A DNA stretch of 64,000 nucleotides from an uncultured Verrucomicrobiota bacterium. GTDB taxonomy: Bacteria > Verrucomicrobiota > Verrucomicrobiia > Limisphaerales > UBA9464. The stretch is from the NCBI GenBank assembly GCA_903907925.1, contig CAIVQB010000077.1, positions 62,001-126,000 on the forward strand, in the 5' to 3' direction. The position numbers and the translations under genes were made by a program. Below, piece after piece: positions 2,818 to 43,625 of this stretch. The notes below the pieces were generated by a model that saw only the letters and a list, made by a program, of their open reading frames with translations, made no database searches and was not told where the DNA came from. Numbering within the stretch: position 1 is the first letter of the stretch; the number at the start of each line of letters is the position of its first letter.

Positions 2818-2987
2818 GGAGATCGGGAGCGAGCCTGACACGAACGTCGACCGGGTGGGAAGCTCCTCCGCGTGGAATGTCGAGGCACCTCCCTGAGCCG
2901 CGTGAACGCGGAACTCCCGGTGGGAAACTCCTCGTCGCGAGAGTCCGCTCACCTCAGGAGACACCCGACGCACGAGCCGCAGCCAGG

Positions 2988-4502: not shown

Positions 4503-4593
4503 TGGCACCCCGCGAGAGACGCCACACACGGCCCCTCACGCAACGACAAAGTGCAGCGCAGCTCCTTGCACCTGAAGAGAGGACACCGATTGC

Positions 4594-4945
4594 ACGAATT
4601 GACACGGATTTAGAAAGAATGAAATCGAATGGATCGGCACTTCGGGAATCGTTGAGAATTCGTGAATCAATATCCCGATTTCCGCCGCTTCCGGTGGAGC
4701 AAATCTCGCGACAAGCCGAATCGACGTGACTCCCCGAACCGCGTAAACGCGGAACTCCGGTCGCAGTAGGGCGAACCTCCCGGTGAGCCGAGTGAACGGA
4801 CGAATTTAACCCCGCCCGGCGGCGTTCCATGCTCTGCCACGCACCCGGCTCGGCGGGAGTCTCGACCCTGTCGATCGCATTCGCCTCTTCAACTCTTCAC
4901 CATTTCAACCCTTCATCCCGTCCTCCCAATCCGTGTCTCTCCGCT
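4594..4945 (+). repeat. Composite intergenic repeat, copy 1 (modules A-B-C)
   Basis: Module B core CCGCGTAAACGCGGAACTCC...TAGGGCGAACCTCCCGGTGAGCCGAGTGAACGGACG; module C TTCAACTC TTCACCAT TTCAACCC TTCATCCC. Confidence 0.85.
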
Positions 4946-5726: not shown

Positions 5727-5804
5727 CGCCTCTTCAACTCATTTCCCTTCATCCCGTCCTCCCAATCCGTGTCAATTGGTGCAATCCGTGTCTCCCACCG
5801 GGCA

Positions 5805-20111: not shown

Positions 20112-20226
20112 CCCTCGCAGGCGGGATGGAATCCTCTGCCGGTTTTCCAACCAGCCCAATCCGCATTGACACCGCCGCCCGCTGGTCGTATTCGCCATCC
20201 GTCTGAAGTAGCAGCCTAAGCTCATT

Positions 20227-20364
20227 CGCCTTCCTGCGAGTGAGTGCGGGGGAACCAAGTTCCCGGTGAAAGCCGGGATGGGGCGAACGGGGCCGGGTAA
20301 CCGGTTCCAAGTCCACTTCCAGGGACAAGCCCGTCAGCTAACCCCGTCGGCATTTGGAAGGGCG
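20227..20364 (+). promoter_or_regulatory. Probable ydaO/yuaA (cyclic di-AMP) riboswitch aptamer
   Basis: CGCCTTCC...GCGGGGGAACCAAG...TGGGGCGAAC...AGGGACAAGCCCGTCAGCTAACCCCGTCGGCATTTGGAAGGGCG, matching remembered ydaO conserved blocks (GGGGAACC, GGGGYGAA, AGGGA, CCCGUCAGCUAACCYCG, RGGC); terminal CGCCTTCC/GGAAGGGCG pairing. Confidence 0.72.
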
Positions 20365-20367
20365 ATC

Positions 20368-26094: not shown

Positions 26095-26180
26095 TCCATC
26101 GCACCTCCGGCGGCCGCCCGCCTGGAAATCCGCGCGATGGACGCAGAAATCTTTTGCATCGCCGGCCGGATTTTGCGGCG

Positions 26181-27500
26181 ATGCGCACCGTCACGATGAG
26201 AGAGATTGTTCCGCCACTGCCGCCGATCGTTCACAACCAGTTCGCCGAGGTCCGGGAGCTGTTCAACCGCTTTGTTGTTCCCAGCTACGGGCGTTTCGAC
26301 CTGGCCTTCAGTCATGGCGCCGGTCACCACGTCTGGGATGTCAGTGGCAAACGCTACCTCGACCTGGGCGGCGGCATCGCGGTCTGCGCGCTCGGCCATG
26401 CGAATCCCGAGATCACCGAGACGCTGATCGAGCAGTCGCGCCGCCTGGTCCATGTTTCCAATCTCTACTACCACGAACCGCAGGGACGCCTGGCCCAACG
26501 GCTCGTCGGACACCTGGCTCCGGGCAAGATCTTCTTCTGCAATTCCGGCGCTGAGGCGAATGAAGGTCTCTACAAACTGGCCCGGAAATTCGGCCATGAT
26601 GAGGGCCGGTTCGAAGTCCTGACCGCCGTGAATTCCTTCCACGGCCGCACGCTGGCGGGCATCGCTGCGACCGGTCAGGAGAAGGTGAAGAAGGGTTTCG
26701 AACCCGCCGTACCCGGGTTTCGCCACATTCCGTTCAACGACCTCGACGCCGCTCGCGACGCCCTGTCCCCGGCGACTGCGGCCATCTTGATCGAAGGCAT
26801 CCAGGGCGAGGGCGGCATCACCCCCGCAACGCCGGAATACCTGCTCGGTCTGCGCGAATTGTGCGATGAACAGGGCGTCCTCCTGCTGGTCGACGGTGTT
26901 CAATGCGGACATTTTCGCAGCGGACGGTTTCAGAGTTTTCAGCGGATCCTCGAAGGTATCCCCGGTGCGGAATCGTTCCTTCCCGATGGTCTGTCGATGG
27001 CCAAGTCGCTCGGTGGCGGCTTTCCCATCGCCGCGTTTTGGGTGCGCGAGGAATCCATGGGGGTCCGGCTCTGCGATCTGCTCGGTGCCGGTAGTCACGG
27101 CACCACCTTCGGCGGCACGCCACTGGGTTGCGCCGTCGCCCTCAAGGTGCTCGACGTCATCGAACGGGACCGGCTCGCCGATCACGTGCGAACCACCGGC
27201 GACTTTATCAAGCGCCGCATCGCCGGCCTGGCCGAAAAATATCCCAGCGTCGTGCGGAGCGCGCGGGGCCTGGGCTTCATGCTGGGGTTCGAACTTCAGG
27301 ATCGTGACCGGATTCCCGGGCTTTCCGGCAGCGACAAACCCGCCAGCCTGCAGGTGGTCAACCGCCTCCACGAGGCTGGAATCCTGACCATTCCCAGCGG
27401 CAACCAGATCGTCCGACTCCTCCCCGCACTCAGCTTGCCACGGTCCCTCGCCGAGGAGGGACTCGGTGTGATCGAAGACGTTGTCCGCTCGATCGCGTGA
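26181..27500 (+). CDS. argD: Acetylornithine/class III aminotransferase
   Basis: YLDLGGGIAVCALGHANPEIT, FFCNSGAEANEGLYKLARKFG, NSFHGRTLAGIAATGQEKVKKGFEP, IQGEGGITPA; arginine gene context. Confidence 0.88.
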   Translation: MRTVTMREIVPPLPPIVHNQFAEVRELFNRFVVPSYGRFDLAFSHGAGHHVWDVSGKRYLDLGGGIAVCALGHANPEITETLIEQSRRLVHVSNLYYHEPQGRLAQRLVGHLAPGKIFFCNSGAEANEGLYKLARKFGHDEGRFEVLTAVNSFHGRTLAGIAATGQEKVKKGFEPAVPGFRHIPFNDLDAARDALSPATAAILIEGIQGEGGITPATPEYLLGLRELCDEQGVLLLVDGVQCGHFRSGRFQSFQRILEGIPGAESFLPDGLSMAKSLGGGFPIAAFWVREESMGVRLCDLLGAGSHGTTFGGTPLGCAVALKVLDVIERDRLADHVRTTGDFIKRRIAGLAEKYPSVVRSARGLGFMLGFELQDRDRIPGLSGSDKPASLQVVNRLHEAGILTIPSGNQIVRLLPALSLPRSLAEEGLGVIEDVVRSIA

Positions 27501-27815
27501 AGGGTTGAAGGGTTGAAGAGAGGAAGACGATCCACGGGTAGGGTCGAGGCTCCCGCCGAGCCGAGCGTGTGGTACTACGCGGGACGCAATTCGGCGTGGT
27601 AGAATCCGTCCGTTCACTCGGCTCACCAGGAGGTTCGCCCTACCGGGCGGGAGTTCCGCATTCACGCGGCTCGGGGAGCCATGAATGGCGACACCGATTT
27701 CACGGATGAACACGGATTCCTGAAACACCGATCGAATTCCGTTCATTCTGTCCATCCCGTTTCCTTCTCATTCTGTCTCATTCCGTGCGAATTCGTGAAA
27801 TCCGTGTCTCGCCTC
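27501..27815 (-). repeat. Composite intergenic repeat, copy 2 (opposite orientation, C-B-A on + strand)
   Basis: GGGTTGAAGGGTTGAAGAG; CGTCCGTTCACTCGGCTCACCAGGAGGTTCGCCCTACCGGGCGGGAGTTCCGCATTCACGCGG; then CGACACCGATTTCACGGATGAACACGGATT...GAATTCGTGAAATCCGTGTC. Confidence 0.85.
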
Positions 27816-31652: not shown

Positions 31653-31752
31653 CGACACGAATTCACGAATGAACACGGATTGTGATGCGAAAAAAACGCC
31701 CCATTCAGGTTCATTCCTCCGAAATTCGTGAAAATCGGTGAAATCCGTGTCG
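31653..31752. repeat. Solo module A inverted repeat
   Basis: CGACACGAATTCACGAATGAACACGGATT ... AAATTCGTGAAAATCGGTGAAATCCGTGTCG. Confidence 0.8.
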
Positions 31753-34371: not shown

Positions 34372-35166
34372 ATGAAATACAGCTACGACGAACTGGCGAA
34401 GATGATCGATCACTCGCTCCTGCATCCCACGATGACGGATCAGGACCTGGACGACGGCTGCCGTCTGGCGGCCAAGTACGGTGCCGCATCGGTTTGCATC
34501 AAACCGTACGCGGTGAAACGGGCGGCCGAATTGTTGAACGGGACCGGCGTGCTGGTCGGAGCAGTCATTGGATTTCCCCACGGCAACGGCACGACGGAAT
34601 CCAAGCGTTACGAAACCGAACTTGCCTGCCGCGACGGTGCCGCCGAGATCGACATGGTGATCAACATCGGCAAGGCGCTGTCCGGCGATTGGGCCTATGT
34701 CGAAACCGATGTCCGGGCCGTCTGCGACGAAGCCCGGCGGCACGGTGCGAAGGTCAAAGTGATCTTCGAAAACGATTATCTGACGAAGGGTGGTGCCGGA
34801 CTGGATTCGGACGCCTTCAAGCGAAAGCTCTGCGAACTCTGCGAGCGGGCGGGTGCGGCCTGGGTCAAGACCTCGTCAGGCTATGGCTTCGTGAAACAGG
34901 CCGACGGCAGCTACAATTACAAGGGCGCAACCGAACACGACCTGGCGTTGATGCGGGCCAGTGTCTCCGAGGCAGTACAAGTGAAGGCAGCCGGCGGCGT
35001 TCGCGATCTCGACGGGTTGATCCGCGTCCGTGAGTTGGGCGGATCCCGCTGCGGCGCGACCGCCACCGCCGCGATGATGGACGAATATCGAAAGCGCGAA
35101 GCGGCGGAGAAGGCGGGCGTCACGGTCGACGGTGGCAAGGGCGGAATCGGCGCGGGCGGGTATTGA
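34372..35166 (+). CDS. deoC: Deoxyribose-phosphate aldolase
   Basis: IDHSLLHPTMTDQDLDDG, VIGFPHGNGTTESKRYE, AWVKTSSGY, VKAAGGVRDLDGLIRV. Confidence 0.95.
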   Translation: MKYSYDELAKMIDHSLLHPTMTDQDLDDGCRLAAKYGAASVCIKPYAVKRAAELLNGTGVLVGAVIGFPHGNGTTESKRYETELACRDGAAEIDMVINIGKALSGDWAYVETDVRAVCDEARRHGAKVKVIFENDYLTKGGAGLDSDAFKRKLCELCERAGAAWVKTSSGYGFVKQADGSYNYKGATEHDLALMRASVSEAVQVKAAGGVRDLDGLIRVRELGGSRCGATATAAMMDEYRKREAAEKAGVTVDGGKGGIGAGGY

Positions 35167-35292
35167 GAAGCGGGTTGAAGTGTTGAAATGCTGAAGATTT
35201 AAAGAGGAAGATGCGCGAACGGTAGAGCGAGGCTTCGCATCCATTCCGTTTCCTGCCTTCATGCTTTCCAGATTCGTCACCCATCACCCGAC

Positions 35293-40000: not shown

Positions 40001-41257
40001 ATGTCTCATCCCACACCATTGGGTCTGAAAAAATCGTTCGGCTACGGCGACCGTCTCGGCCTGGCCACGCCGGGGCATCTGGCCGCCGCCCGGAAGTTCC
40101 CTGATTTCGCACCCATTCTCGCCCAGCAATCGATCCGGGAAATGACCCGGACCCGCCGCACGGCGAAGGAAGTCATGGCCGCCGCCAAGCGTGGCGTGGA
40201 ATCGACTGGCTACGCAGGAATCTGGGGGGCGGATGGCGATCACTTGAAAACGCCGGAGGACGTCCGGGTGGTTTCCGATGCCGGATTCCGTTTCTTTACC
40301 ATCGATCCCAGCGCGTTCGTCAACAATGACGCCGATCATCTGGACGCCGCCGCGCTGGAAGCGGGAGTCGCTGGGTTGGAAGCCGATGGGACCCTCGCTG
40401 GTTTCGACTGGCGCGGCGCGTATCTCGACCGTTCGTTCGACATCGGCACCGACGCGCCGCTGCGGTTCGATCGTGAGTCGTTGTTCCGCGCCCTCGTCAA
40501 ATACGGCCGTGCGACCGCTCATTGCCAGGTGATGGGCCGGGCCATTTCCGGGGTCAGTGCCGACCGCGGATTCGACATCGAGGTCTCGGTGGATGAAACT
40601 GATTCACCGACGAGCCCGCTGGAACATCTGTTCTTCGCGCTGGAATTGAAACGCCGTGAGGTTCCGAACGTGGTGAGCCTGGCGCCGCGATTCATTGGGG
40701 AGTTCGAGAAGGGCATCGACTACAAGGGCGACCTGAAGGCGTTCGAGGCGCAGTTGCGGTTGCACGCCGCCATCGCCCGCAGCACCGGTCCGTACAAGAT
40801 CAGCGTCCACAGCGGTTCCGACAAATTCACCGCGTACCCAGTGGTGGGCCGCGTTTGTGGCAATCTCCTTCACGTGAAGACGGCGGGAACCAGCTACTTG
40901 GAGGCGCTTCGGGTGATTGCCCGGATTCGTCCCGGATTGTTCGCCGAGATCGCCGAATACTCCCGGGGCCGTTTCGAGACCGACCGCGCCAGTTACCACA
41001 TCAGCACCACGGCGGCGCAGGTGGCCGCGCTGCCGGCCTTCTCCGGACCCGCGGACGAAGCGGTCTACCTGGACGAGATTCCCGGGCGGCAATTGCTGCA
41101 CGTCACCTTCGGCAGCGTTCTGACGGTCGGAGTCGATGCCAAGGGACGGCCGTTCAAGGACGGAATTCTCGAAGTCCTCCAGGAACGGCCCGATCTACAC
41201 CTTGAATTCCTCGAACGCCATTTCGTGAAGCACCTCTCCCTGCTGAACGCGGGTTGA
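40001..41257 (+). CDS. uxaE: Tagaturonate epimerase family protein
   Basis: SFGYGDRLGLATPGHL, GADGDHLKTPEDV..GFRFFTIDPSAFV, YKISVHSGSDKFTAYPVVGR. Confidence 0.8.
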   Translation: MSHPTPLGLKKSFGYGDRLGLATPGHLAAARKFPDFAPILAQQSIREMTRTRRTAKEVMAAAKRGVESTGYAGIWGADGDHLKTPEDVRVVSDAGFRFFTIDPSAFVNNDADHLDAAALEAGVAGLEADGTLAGFDWRGAYLDRSFDIGTDAPLRFDRESLFRALVKYGRATAHCQVMGRAISGVSADRGFDIEVSVDETDSPTSPLEHLFFALELKRREVPNVVSLAPRFIGEFEKGIDYKGDLKAFEAQLRLHAAIARSTGPYKISVHSGSDKFTAYPVVGRVCGNLLHVKTAGTSYLEALRVIARIRPGLFAEIAEYSRGRFETDRASYHISTTAAQVAALPAFSGPADEAVYLDEIPGRQLLHVTFGSVLTVGVDAKGRPFKDGILEVLQERPDLHLEFLERHFVKHLSLLNAG

Positions 41258-41264
41258 GTTCCCT

Positions 41265-41550
41265 TCCGTGAGAATGGGTGGAATCGGTGTCTGGATTCGT
41301 TTCGATCCCTGGACGATCCGAGTGAACGTGGCTCCCCGAATCGCGTGAACGCGGAACTCCCCCGGTAGGGCGAACCTCCCGGTGAGCTCGGTGGACGGAC
41401 GGATTCAATAACGCACCGCTGCGTCCCACATCCTACCACGTTCCGGCTTGGCAGGAGCCGCGCCCTACCGATGGACCGCGTCCCTCTTAAACTCTGCAAC
41501 TCTTAAACCTTTCAACCGACTCGCTTCCTTCCGTGAAAATCCGTGCCCTC
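41265..41550 (+). repeat. Composite intergenic repeat, copy 3 (modules A-B-C)
   Basis: GAATCGCGTGAACGCGGAACTCCCCCGGTAGGGCGAACCTCCCGGTGAGCTCGGTGGACGGACGGATT; TTAAACTC TGCAACTC TTAAACCT TTCAACCG. Confidence 0.85.
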
Positions 41551-43543: not shown

Positions 43544-43625
43544 ACCGGGCCGATTGAATTGAGTGCAGTCAGAAAAACTGGATCAGATTCCGTGAAAATC
43601 AGTGGAATCCGTGTCGTCCCTCTCC

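Follow-up and report, generated by a model that had tools for sequence, protein, structure and literature searches.

Intergenic repeat mosaics with a REP doublet core in the genome of an uncultured Verrucomicrobiota bacterium

Results

Three intergenic sites and their modules

The window that we analysed is a stretch of 64,000 nucleotides from an uncultured Verrucomicrobiota bacterium (contig CAIVQB010000077.1, positions 62,001 to 126,000), and the same ordered chain of repeat modules is present at three of its intergenic sites. The second site lies behind a class-III aminotransferase gene and the third has a UxaE-like (tagaturonate epimerase) gene upstream (40001-41257). The original prediction gave these three sites a common module order, with the second copy inverted, and one profile built from the three indeed matches all of them, at 4594-4944 (+), 27796-27495 (-) and 41261-41546 (+), so that the chain occurs in both orientations. 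It was also right that no transposase is encoded, as there is none in or between the modules of the chain. An Rfam search of the window returned only a tRNA and a c-di-AMP riboswitch (20203-20367, + strand, RF00379, 52.7 bits), and no Rfam family at the chains.

Read 5' to 3', the chain consists of A, B0, B1, B2 (about 109 bp), a short tail (TGGACCGCGTTC), C and half an A (Table 1). B0 is missing from copy 2, and most of A is gone from copy 3. Several of the boundaries first proposed had to be redrawn. Module A is present, but as an inverted repeat of about 105 bp with 30-bp arms (GGACACGGATTTCACGAATTNNCACGGATT), which is more than the ATCCGTG motifs, and in copy 3 it is a remnant only. Copy 1 is confirmed as a site, with its left edge at about 4582, where the A palindrome starts, and not at 4594. 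The B module of 145 bp is present too, but as two modules, B0/B1 and B2, which are also found apart, and C does not end the chain, since half an A (AATCCGTGTC) follows it.

Table 1. Repeat modules at the three sites and elsewhere in the window (window coordinates; CM, covariance model)
Feature	Position	Strand	Description
Copy 1 module A	4582..4668	+	palindrome, GACACGGATT-type arms, right arm decayed; A profile 52 bits
Copy 1 B0	4694..4717	+	decayed REP head (GTGGAGCAAATCTCGCGACAAGCC); lay-out as in B2 heads, by reading
Copy 1 B1	4725..4760	+	hairpin module, stem-loop CCGCGTAAACGCGG at 4739-4752; B0/B1 profile 68 bits
Copy 1 B2	4764..4873	+	REPIN-like REP doublet; GTAG at 4766-4769, inverted decayed head at 3' end; CM R1 108.9 bits, E 3.8e-20 (a score of a copy that belongs to the seed of CM R1)
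Copy 1 C	4888..4919	+	TTCAAC minisatellite; direct reading
Copy 1 half-A	4928..4937	+	AATCCGTGTC at 3' edge; direct reading; equal position in L002, L016, L028 and L208
Copy 2 module A	27690..27808	-	full palindrome; A profile 97 bits
Copy 2 B1 (without B0)	27639..27701	-	B0/B1 profile 44 bits
Copy 2 B2 REP doublet	27536..27645	-	CM R1 120.7 bits
Copy 2 C	27500..27520	-	abuts TGA stop of + strand aminotransferase gene (26154-27500)
Copy 3 B0/B1	41294..41369	+	only an A remnant precedes; B0/B1 profile 56 bits
Copy 3 B2 REP doublet	41363..41470	+	CM R1 107.1 bits
Copy 3 C minisatellite	41487..41520	+	then half-A-like TTCCGTGAAAATCCGTG (about 41531-41547)
B1 alone	2889..2924	+	overlaps end of predicted gene; 31.9 bits
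C then half-A, without B	5733..5792	+	
Full A alone, without B or C	31654..31751	+	45 bits
B2 3' end and C, rest absent	35168..35236	-	23.8 bits, E 2.4e-7
Half-A, partial chain	43547-43615		

Module A is paired in 87% of cells, and in its terminal inverted repeats, short length, dispersal and lack of an ORF it resembles a MITE. Its arms do not co-vary above shuffles, and A was rejected as a co-varying structure. B0 has, by reading, the lay-out of a REP head, with a GTGG tag, a GA/GA-type internal mismatch and an ATC/GAT upper stem in L013 and L028. B1 is a 5-bp hairpin, CCGCG-TRAA-CGCGG, with a DNA fold z of -2.8 in copy 1, and C is a minisatellite of 8-bp period.

The B2 core as a REP doublet

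Both ends of B2 are inverted copies of a head that reads GTAG-GGC-GA-NNN-TCCY-N'N'N'-GA-GCC. The heads face outward, and most copies are about 109 bp long with a centre of about 60 bp; other lineages have other centres and lengths, and related heads with other centres are found in other families of the order. The upper stem NNN/N'N'N' is variable (ACC/GGT, GGC/GCC, ATC/GAT, GCG/CGC, GGA/TCC, CGC/GCG, AGC/GCT and others), and within a single element the triplets at the two ends are mostly different (ACC/GGT and GGC/GCC).

A perfect 3-bp upper stem is formed by 173 of 191 heads compared to a shuffled maximum of 77, and within the own genome alone by 30 of 34 compared to a maximum of 21. In a set of 50 distinct heads 95.7% of cells are paired, there are 48 double changes, and the covariation of 0.479 (0.181 shuffled) was reached by 0 of 500 shuffles, which take no account of relatedness among the heads. 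This covariation is lost when the partner is shifted by one, two or three columns. The pattern used to collect the heads required a GTAG or GTGG tag, the fixed GA/GA and most of the GGC/GCC positions, and thus only NNN is an independent test. The tag was also seen in a 21-copy alignment (A1) that was found by similarity and not by pattern, in which 20 copies keep the GGTAGG block (one with CAGTAGG) and one has lost it. Folded as DNA and unaided, heads of two of the three types tried (ACC/GGT and ATC/GAT) adopt this hairpin, ....(((..(((....)))..))), and the MFE fold departs from it for a GGC/GCC head with an extra T.

Long-range pairing of the two B2 arms involves 26 pairs with no compensatory change, whereas the single heads co-vary, and the reading of B2 as a single long RNA hairpin kept by selection was therefore rejected. 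Given that the heads co-vary and the arms do not, and that the end triplets differ, the single head is the unit under structural constraint, as would be expected for a RAYT/TnpA-REP substrate.

By its anatomy the B2 core is a REP doublet. It has the tag, an imperfect palindrome that folds as single-stranded DNA, extragenic dispersal and an inverted doublet with characteristic spacing, and its solo copies end sharply at GGTAG/CTACC. Its copies are divergent, with a mean identity of 71-86% within groups, and its copy number of about 36 places is below the more than 100 usual for REPs.

Copies in the genome

The own genome (G000) measures 4.6 Mb in 148 contigs. Copy 1 as query finds 41 places in all of it, and a search with the B2 covariance model returns 54 rows, which come to about 36 distinct places once opposite-strand echoes of the near-palindromic B2 are removed. 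In a 770-kb sample made up of six contigs, the profiles match A 39 times, B0/B1 13 times and B2 14 times, with 0 matches for all three in a shuffled 770-kb control; C-type runs number 51, as against 6 in a reversed control. Most matches in this sample are intergenic (A 38/39, B2 13/14, B0/B1 11/13), though only roughly so, as gene positions come from a home-made gene caller with a coding fraction of 0.755. In the same sample B2 is scarce between divergent genes. A is commoner between convergent genes (16/32 vs 61/255, Fisher p 0.003, one of several comparisons), which fits promoter avoidance as well as it fits a 3'-end role.

Order and separability of the modules

The order of the modules was assessed from the genome-wide B2 sites and the 770-kb sample. 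C lies on the 3' side of B2 and on the same strand in all 13 B2 sites that have a neighbouring C. A model of B2 only also recovers C-bearing sites, so this order is unlikely to be an artefact of searching with copy 1. In the 770-kb sample, C is no more than 60 bp away from 7 of 14 B2 copies where 0.39 would be expected from random intergenic placement, and A lies within 150 bp of a B module in 15 of 27 cases where random intergenic positions would give 1.29. The joints are conserved as well, B1-B2 at 11 sites and B2-C with a spacing of mostly 18-21 bp, which points to fused chains having been duplicated. A mosaic of REPs and other motifs in a preferred order is what defines a BIME, and the chain has this form. 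The original prediction of a dispersed repeat, in both orientations and ordered beyond chance, thus finds further copies at about 36 core places, no match in the shuffled control and a preferred order.

The other side of its claim, that of a single composite element, is not right in that form, as A, B2 and C differ in their genomic and phylogenetic distribution and each is found without the others. Many B2 copies have sharp ends and lie in unique sequence (L024, L204, L207), B2 with C but without B1 and A without B are also found, and only a minority of B2 copies carry the chain. In a tree, B2 copies with and without the chain are intermixed. A second type of chain (L014, L015, L017, L018, L020, L025, L026) has B2 in another conserved frame, with about 100 bp to its left and 38 bp to its right; this group is a younger B2 subfamily of 86% identity, and its long conserved flanks are unrelated to A-B1-C. 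One site with A-B1-C and no B2 (L028) was considered as a pre-insertion site and rejected, because the CCGCG repeats that border it would be explained just as well by a deletion.

Among relatives the distribution is patchy. The congener contigs were recovered by name and are those of Verrucomicrobia MAGs. B2 is found at about 36 places in the own genome, about 60 in G006 and 32 in G001, with 0 in G002, G004 and G007 and shorter relatives in G003 and G005. G006 also has tandem B2 arrays, one of them with five copies at a period of 135. A arms number about 102 in the own genome, 30 in G006, 28 in G007 and 6 in G001, with none in G002-G005. At the copy-2 site the modules can be seen to separate in the relatives, as G001 and G006 have A alone and G007 has C alone, while G003 keeps the gene pair and carries none of the modules there. 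For the gene upstream of copy 3 no orthologue was found in seven congeners (E 1e-40). The A-B-C arrangement is therefore a mosaic of separately distributed repeat families and not one element.

RAYT and Y1 transposase genes

REP doublets (REPINs) are a class of single-stranded DNA substrate of RAYT transposases (Y1 HUH). The own genome has one RAYT over the NCBIfam cut-off (C47:80594, 82 bits; L188:2481-3095) and two IS200-like transposase genes, all flanked by other palindromes and not by B2. No Y1 transposase with B2 at its flank was found in the own genome, nor a RAYT beside B2 in the seven congeners, whose contigs are short. The lack of a B2-flanked Y1 transposase in the own genome makes its B2 copies look old and orphaned. 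The own RAYT, which was missed by PF01797, has another long repeat family at its flanks (GGAGTGCGCCGGCAGAGCG...CCGCAGTCCA), and a RAYT in G032 (L202) is bordered by a similar repeat. The IS200-like genes (L031, L032) each lie amid a palindrome family of their own (CCCAGGGCAACGCCCTGGG and CCTGGGGCGATGCCCCAGG). The chains themselves, at about 350 bp or less and without a transposase gene, do not have the IS200/IS605 form of an own TnpA between palindromes.

Another genome gives a closer link. In G058 ('bacterium isolate BP7.bin47', 4.6 Mb) four of five exact heads are in or beside one RAYT gene (L277), and with a looser pattern 12 heads fall within 1.2 kb, inside and around the RAYT-like ORF. 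The RAYT match of L277 scores 64.5 bits, below the NCBIfam cut-off of 80, perhaps because heads have been inserted in the reading frame. This ORF (L277:1264-2298, 344 aa) stays open despite several in-frame GTAG REPs inserted in it. The REPtron link thus comes from one other genome (G058) plus one weak case (L202).

Discussion

Each site is probably a BIME-like mosaic whose B2 core is or was a REPIN, with fused chains sometimes duplicated as units. The REPIN reading of the core is suggested by its co-varying hairpins, by its dispersal and position between genes, by the sharp ends of solo copies, by the tandem arrays in a relative and by the RAYT packed with heads in another genome. A RAYT acting in trans would recognise each head as folded single-stranded DNA, cut near the GTAG ends and spread the doublet. 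The cognate RAYT may have been lost from the own genome, or could be unassembled there, and the B2 copies would now be decaying. The other modules would be neighbours accumulated in the same intergenic spaces, B0/B1 among them, with A as an independent palindromic repeat family and C as a slippage minisatellite anchored to the B2 tail. Later on, a number of fused chains could have been copied as units, which would account for the fixed order and the conserved joints.

The main alternative is a single non-autonomous mobile element of about 350 bp that comprises the whole A-B0/B1-B2-C-half A chain, has GACACGGATT as its inverted ends and moves in one piece, the partial chains being its deletion derivatives. 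The fixed order and conserved joints would be expected from such an element, copy 1 folds with its ends paired, and copying of units that exceed B2 in size is shown to be possible by the L014-L026 group. However, the chain is found in only a minority of B2 copies and these do not separate from the others in the tree, A and B2 are distributed differently among the congeners, A or C stands alone at the copy-2 site, and a target duplication was not established. We regard this alternative as unlikely, and since the modules separate in relatives we reject a single composite element as the sole explanation.

The mosaic reading with its REPIN core also leaves something to be explained. Conserved sequence reaches far beyond the REPIN in two subfamilies, the A...C chain and the L014-L026 group, and this is not predicted by canonical REPIN mobility. 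Neither insertion nor excision of a copy was observed. A RAYT-type enzyme might have moved or copied the longer chains, with unrelated palindromes and the minisatellite carried along, a proposal that we hold to be improbable. If it were true, the REPIN machinery could spread composite cargo beyond the doublet of about 100 bp.

A different possibility is that the chains work as RNA structures, at 3' ends or in regulation, and are maintained by selection on transcription or mRNA stability. The excess of A between convergent genes, the scarcity of B2 between divergent ones and the strong fold of copy 1 (z -2.9) could all be read in this way, but promoter avoidance gives the same positional bias. 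Moreover, neither the A arms nor the two B2 arms show co-variation beyond shuffles, the copy-2 site is not conserved among congeners, and there is no Rfam match, and such a role appears quite improbable. C is a simple repeat, but the idea that the chains are a chance product of GC-rich or low-complexity sequence between genes hardly deserves consideration, being refuted by the lack of shuffled-sequence matches and by co-occurrence far above random intergenic placement.

Comparison to known systems can help to place the mosaic and its REPIN-like core. B2 resembles REPINs (Bertels and Rainey 2011, PMC3116915) in being an inverted doublet of short tagged hairpins around a conserved centre, dispersed outside genes with some copies in tandem arrays, and plausibly moved by a RAYT in trans; it differs from them in its divergent copies, in an own genome without a cognate RAYT and in that some copies lie within longer conserved chains. 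Within the same phylum, the description given by Di Nocera et al. 2013 (PMC3733652) already includes GTAG-tagged REPs in Opitutus terrae, which share with B2 the GTAG (or GTGG) tag beside a short hairpin and the frequent dimers, a likeness by description and not by consensus sequence. The substrates of E. coli TnpA-REP (PMC8266576) also combine GTAG with a mid-stem mismatch bulge. The bulge is AA/GC in E. coli, where the enzyme requires it, and GA/GA in B2; stem and loop sequences differ. As far as could be tested, B2 is thus known in kind and new as a family, the O. terrae families having been compared by description alone. The chain as a whole is like enterobacterial BIMEs in being a mosaic of REPs and other fixed motifs in a preferred order, but here the REPs are joined, among others, by a long palindrome that is independent of them (A) and by a minisatellite (C).

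These findings add to the Verrucomicrobia, a phylum with known but little-studied REPs, a REPIN-like family that is well supported and whose stems clearly co-vary, and they show site by site how repeat families that are independent of each other accumulate in a single intergenic space with a preferred order. The RAYT gene of G058, packed with the same hairpins, makes the link between enzyme and substrate directly testable. For A and C, a literature search by their sequence strings returned no paper. Two further observations concern these modules. Near a contig end of the own genome, two identical A palindromes lie 150 bp apart (G000:C1:98480-98583 and 98630-98733), and this pair is a recent tandem duplication. 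On the same contig, at about 34760-34880 (L009), C is expanded to more than 10 CCCCTCAA units.
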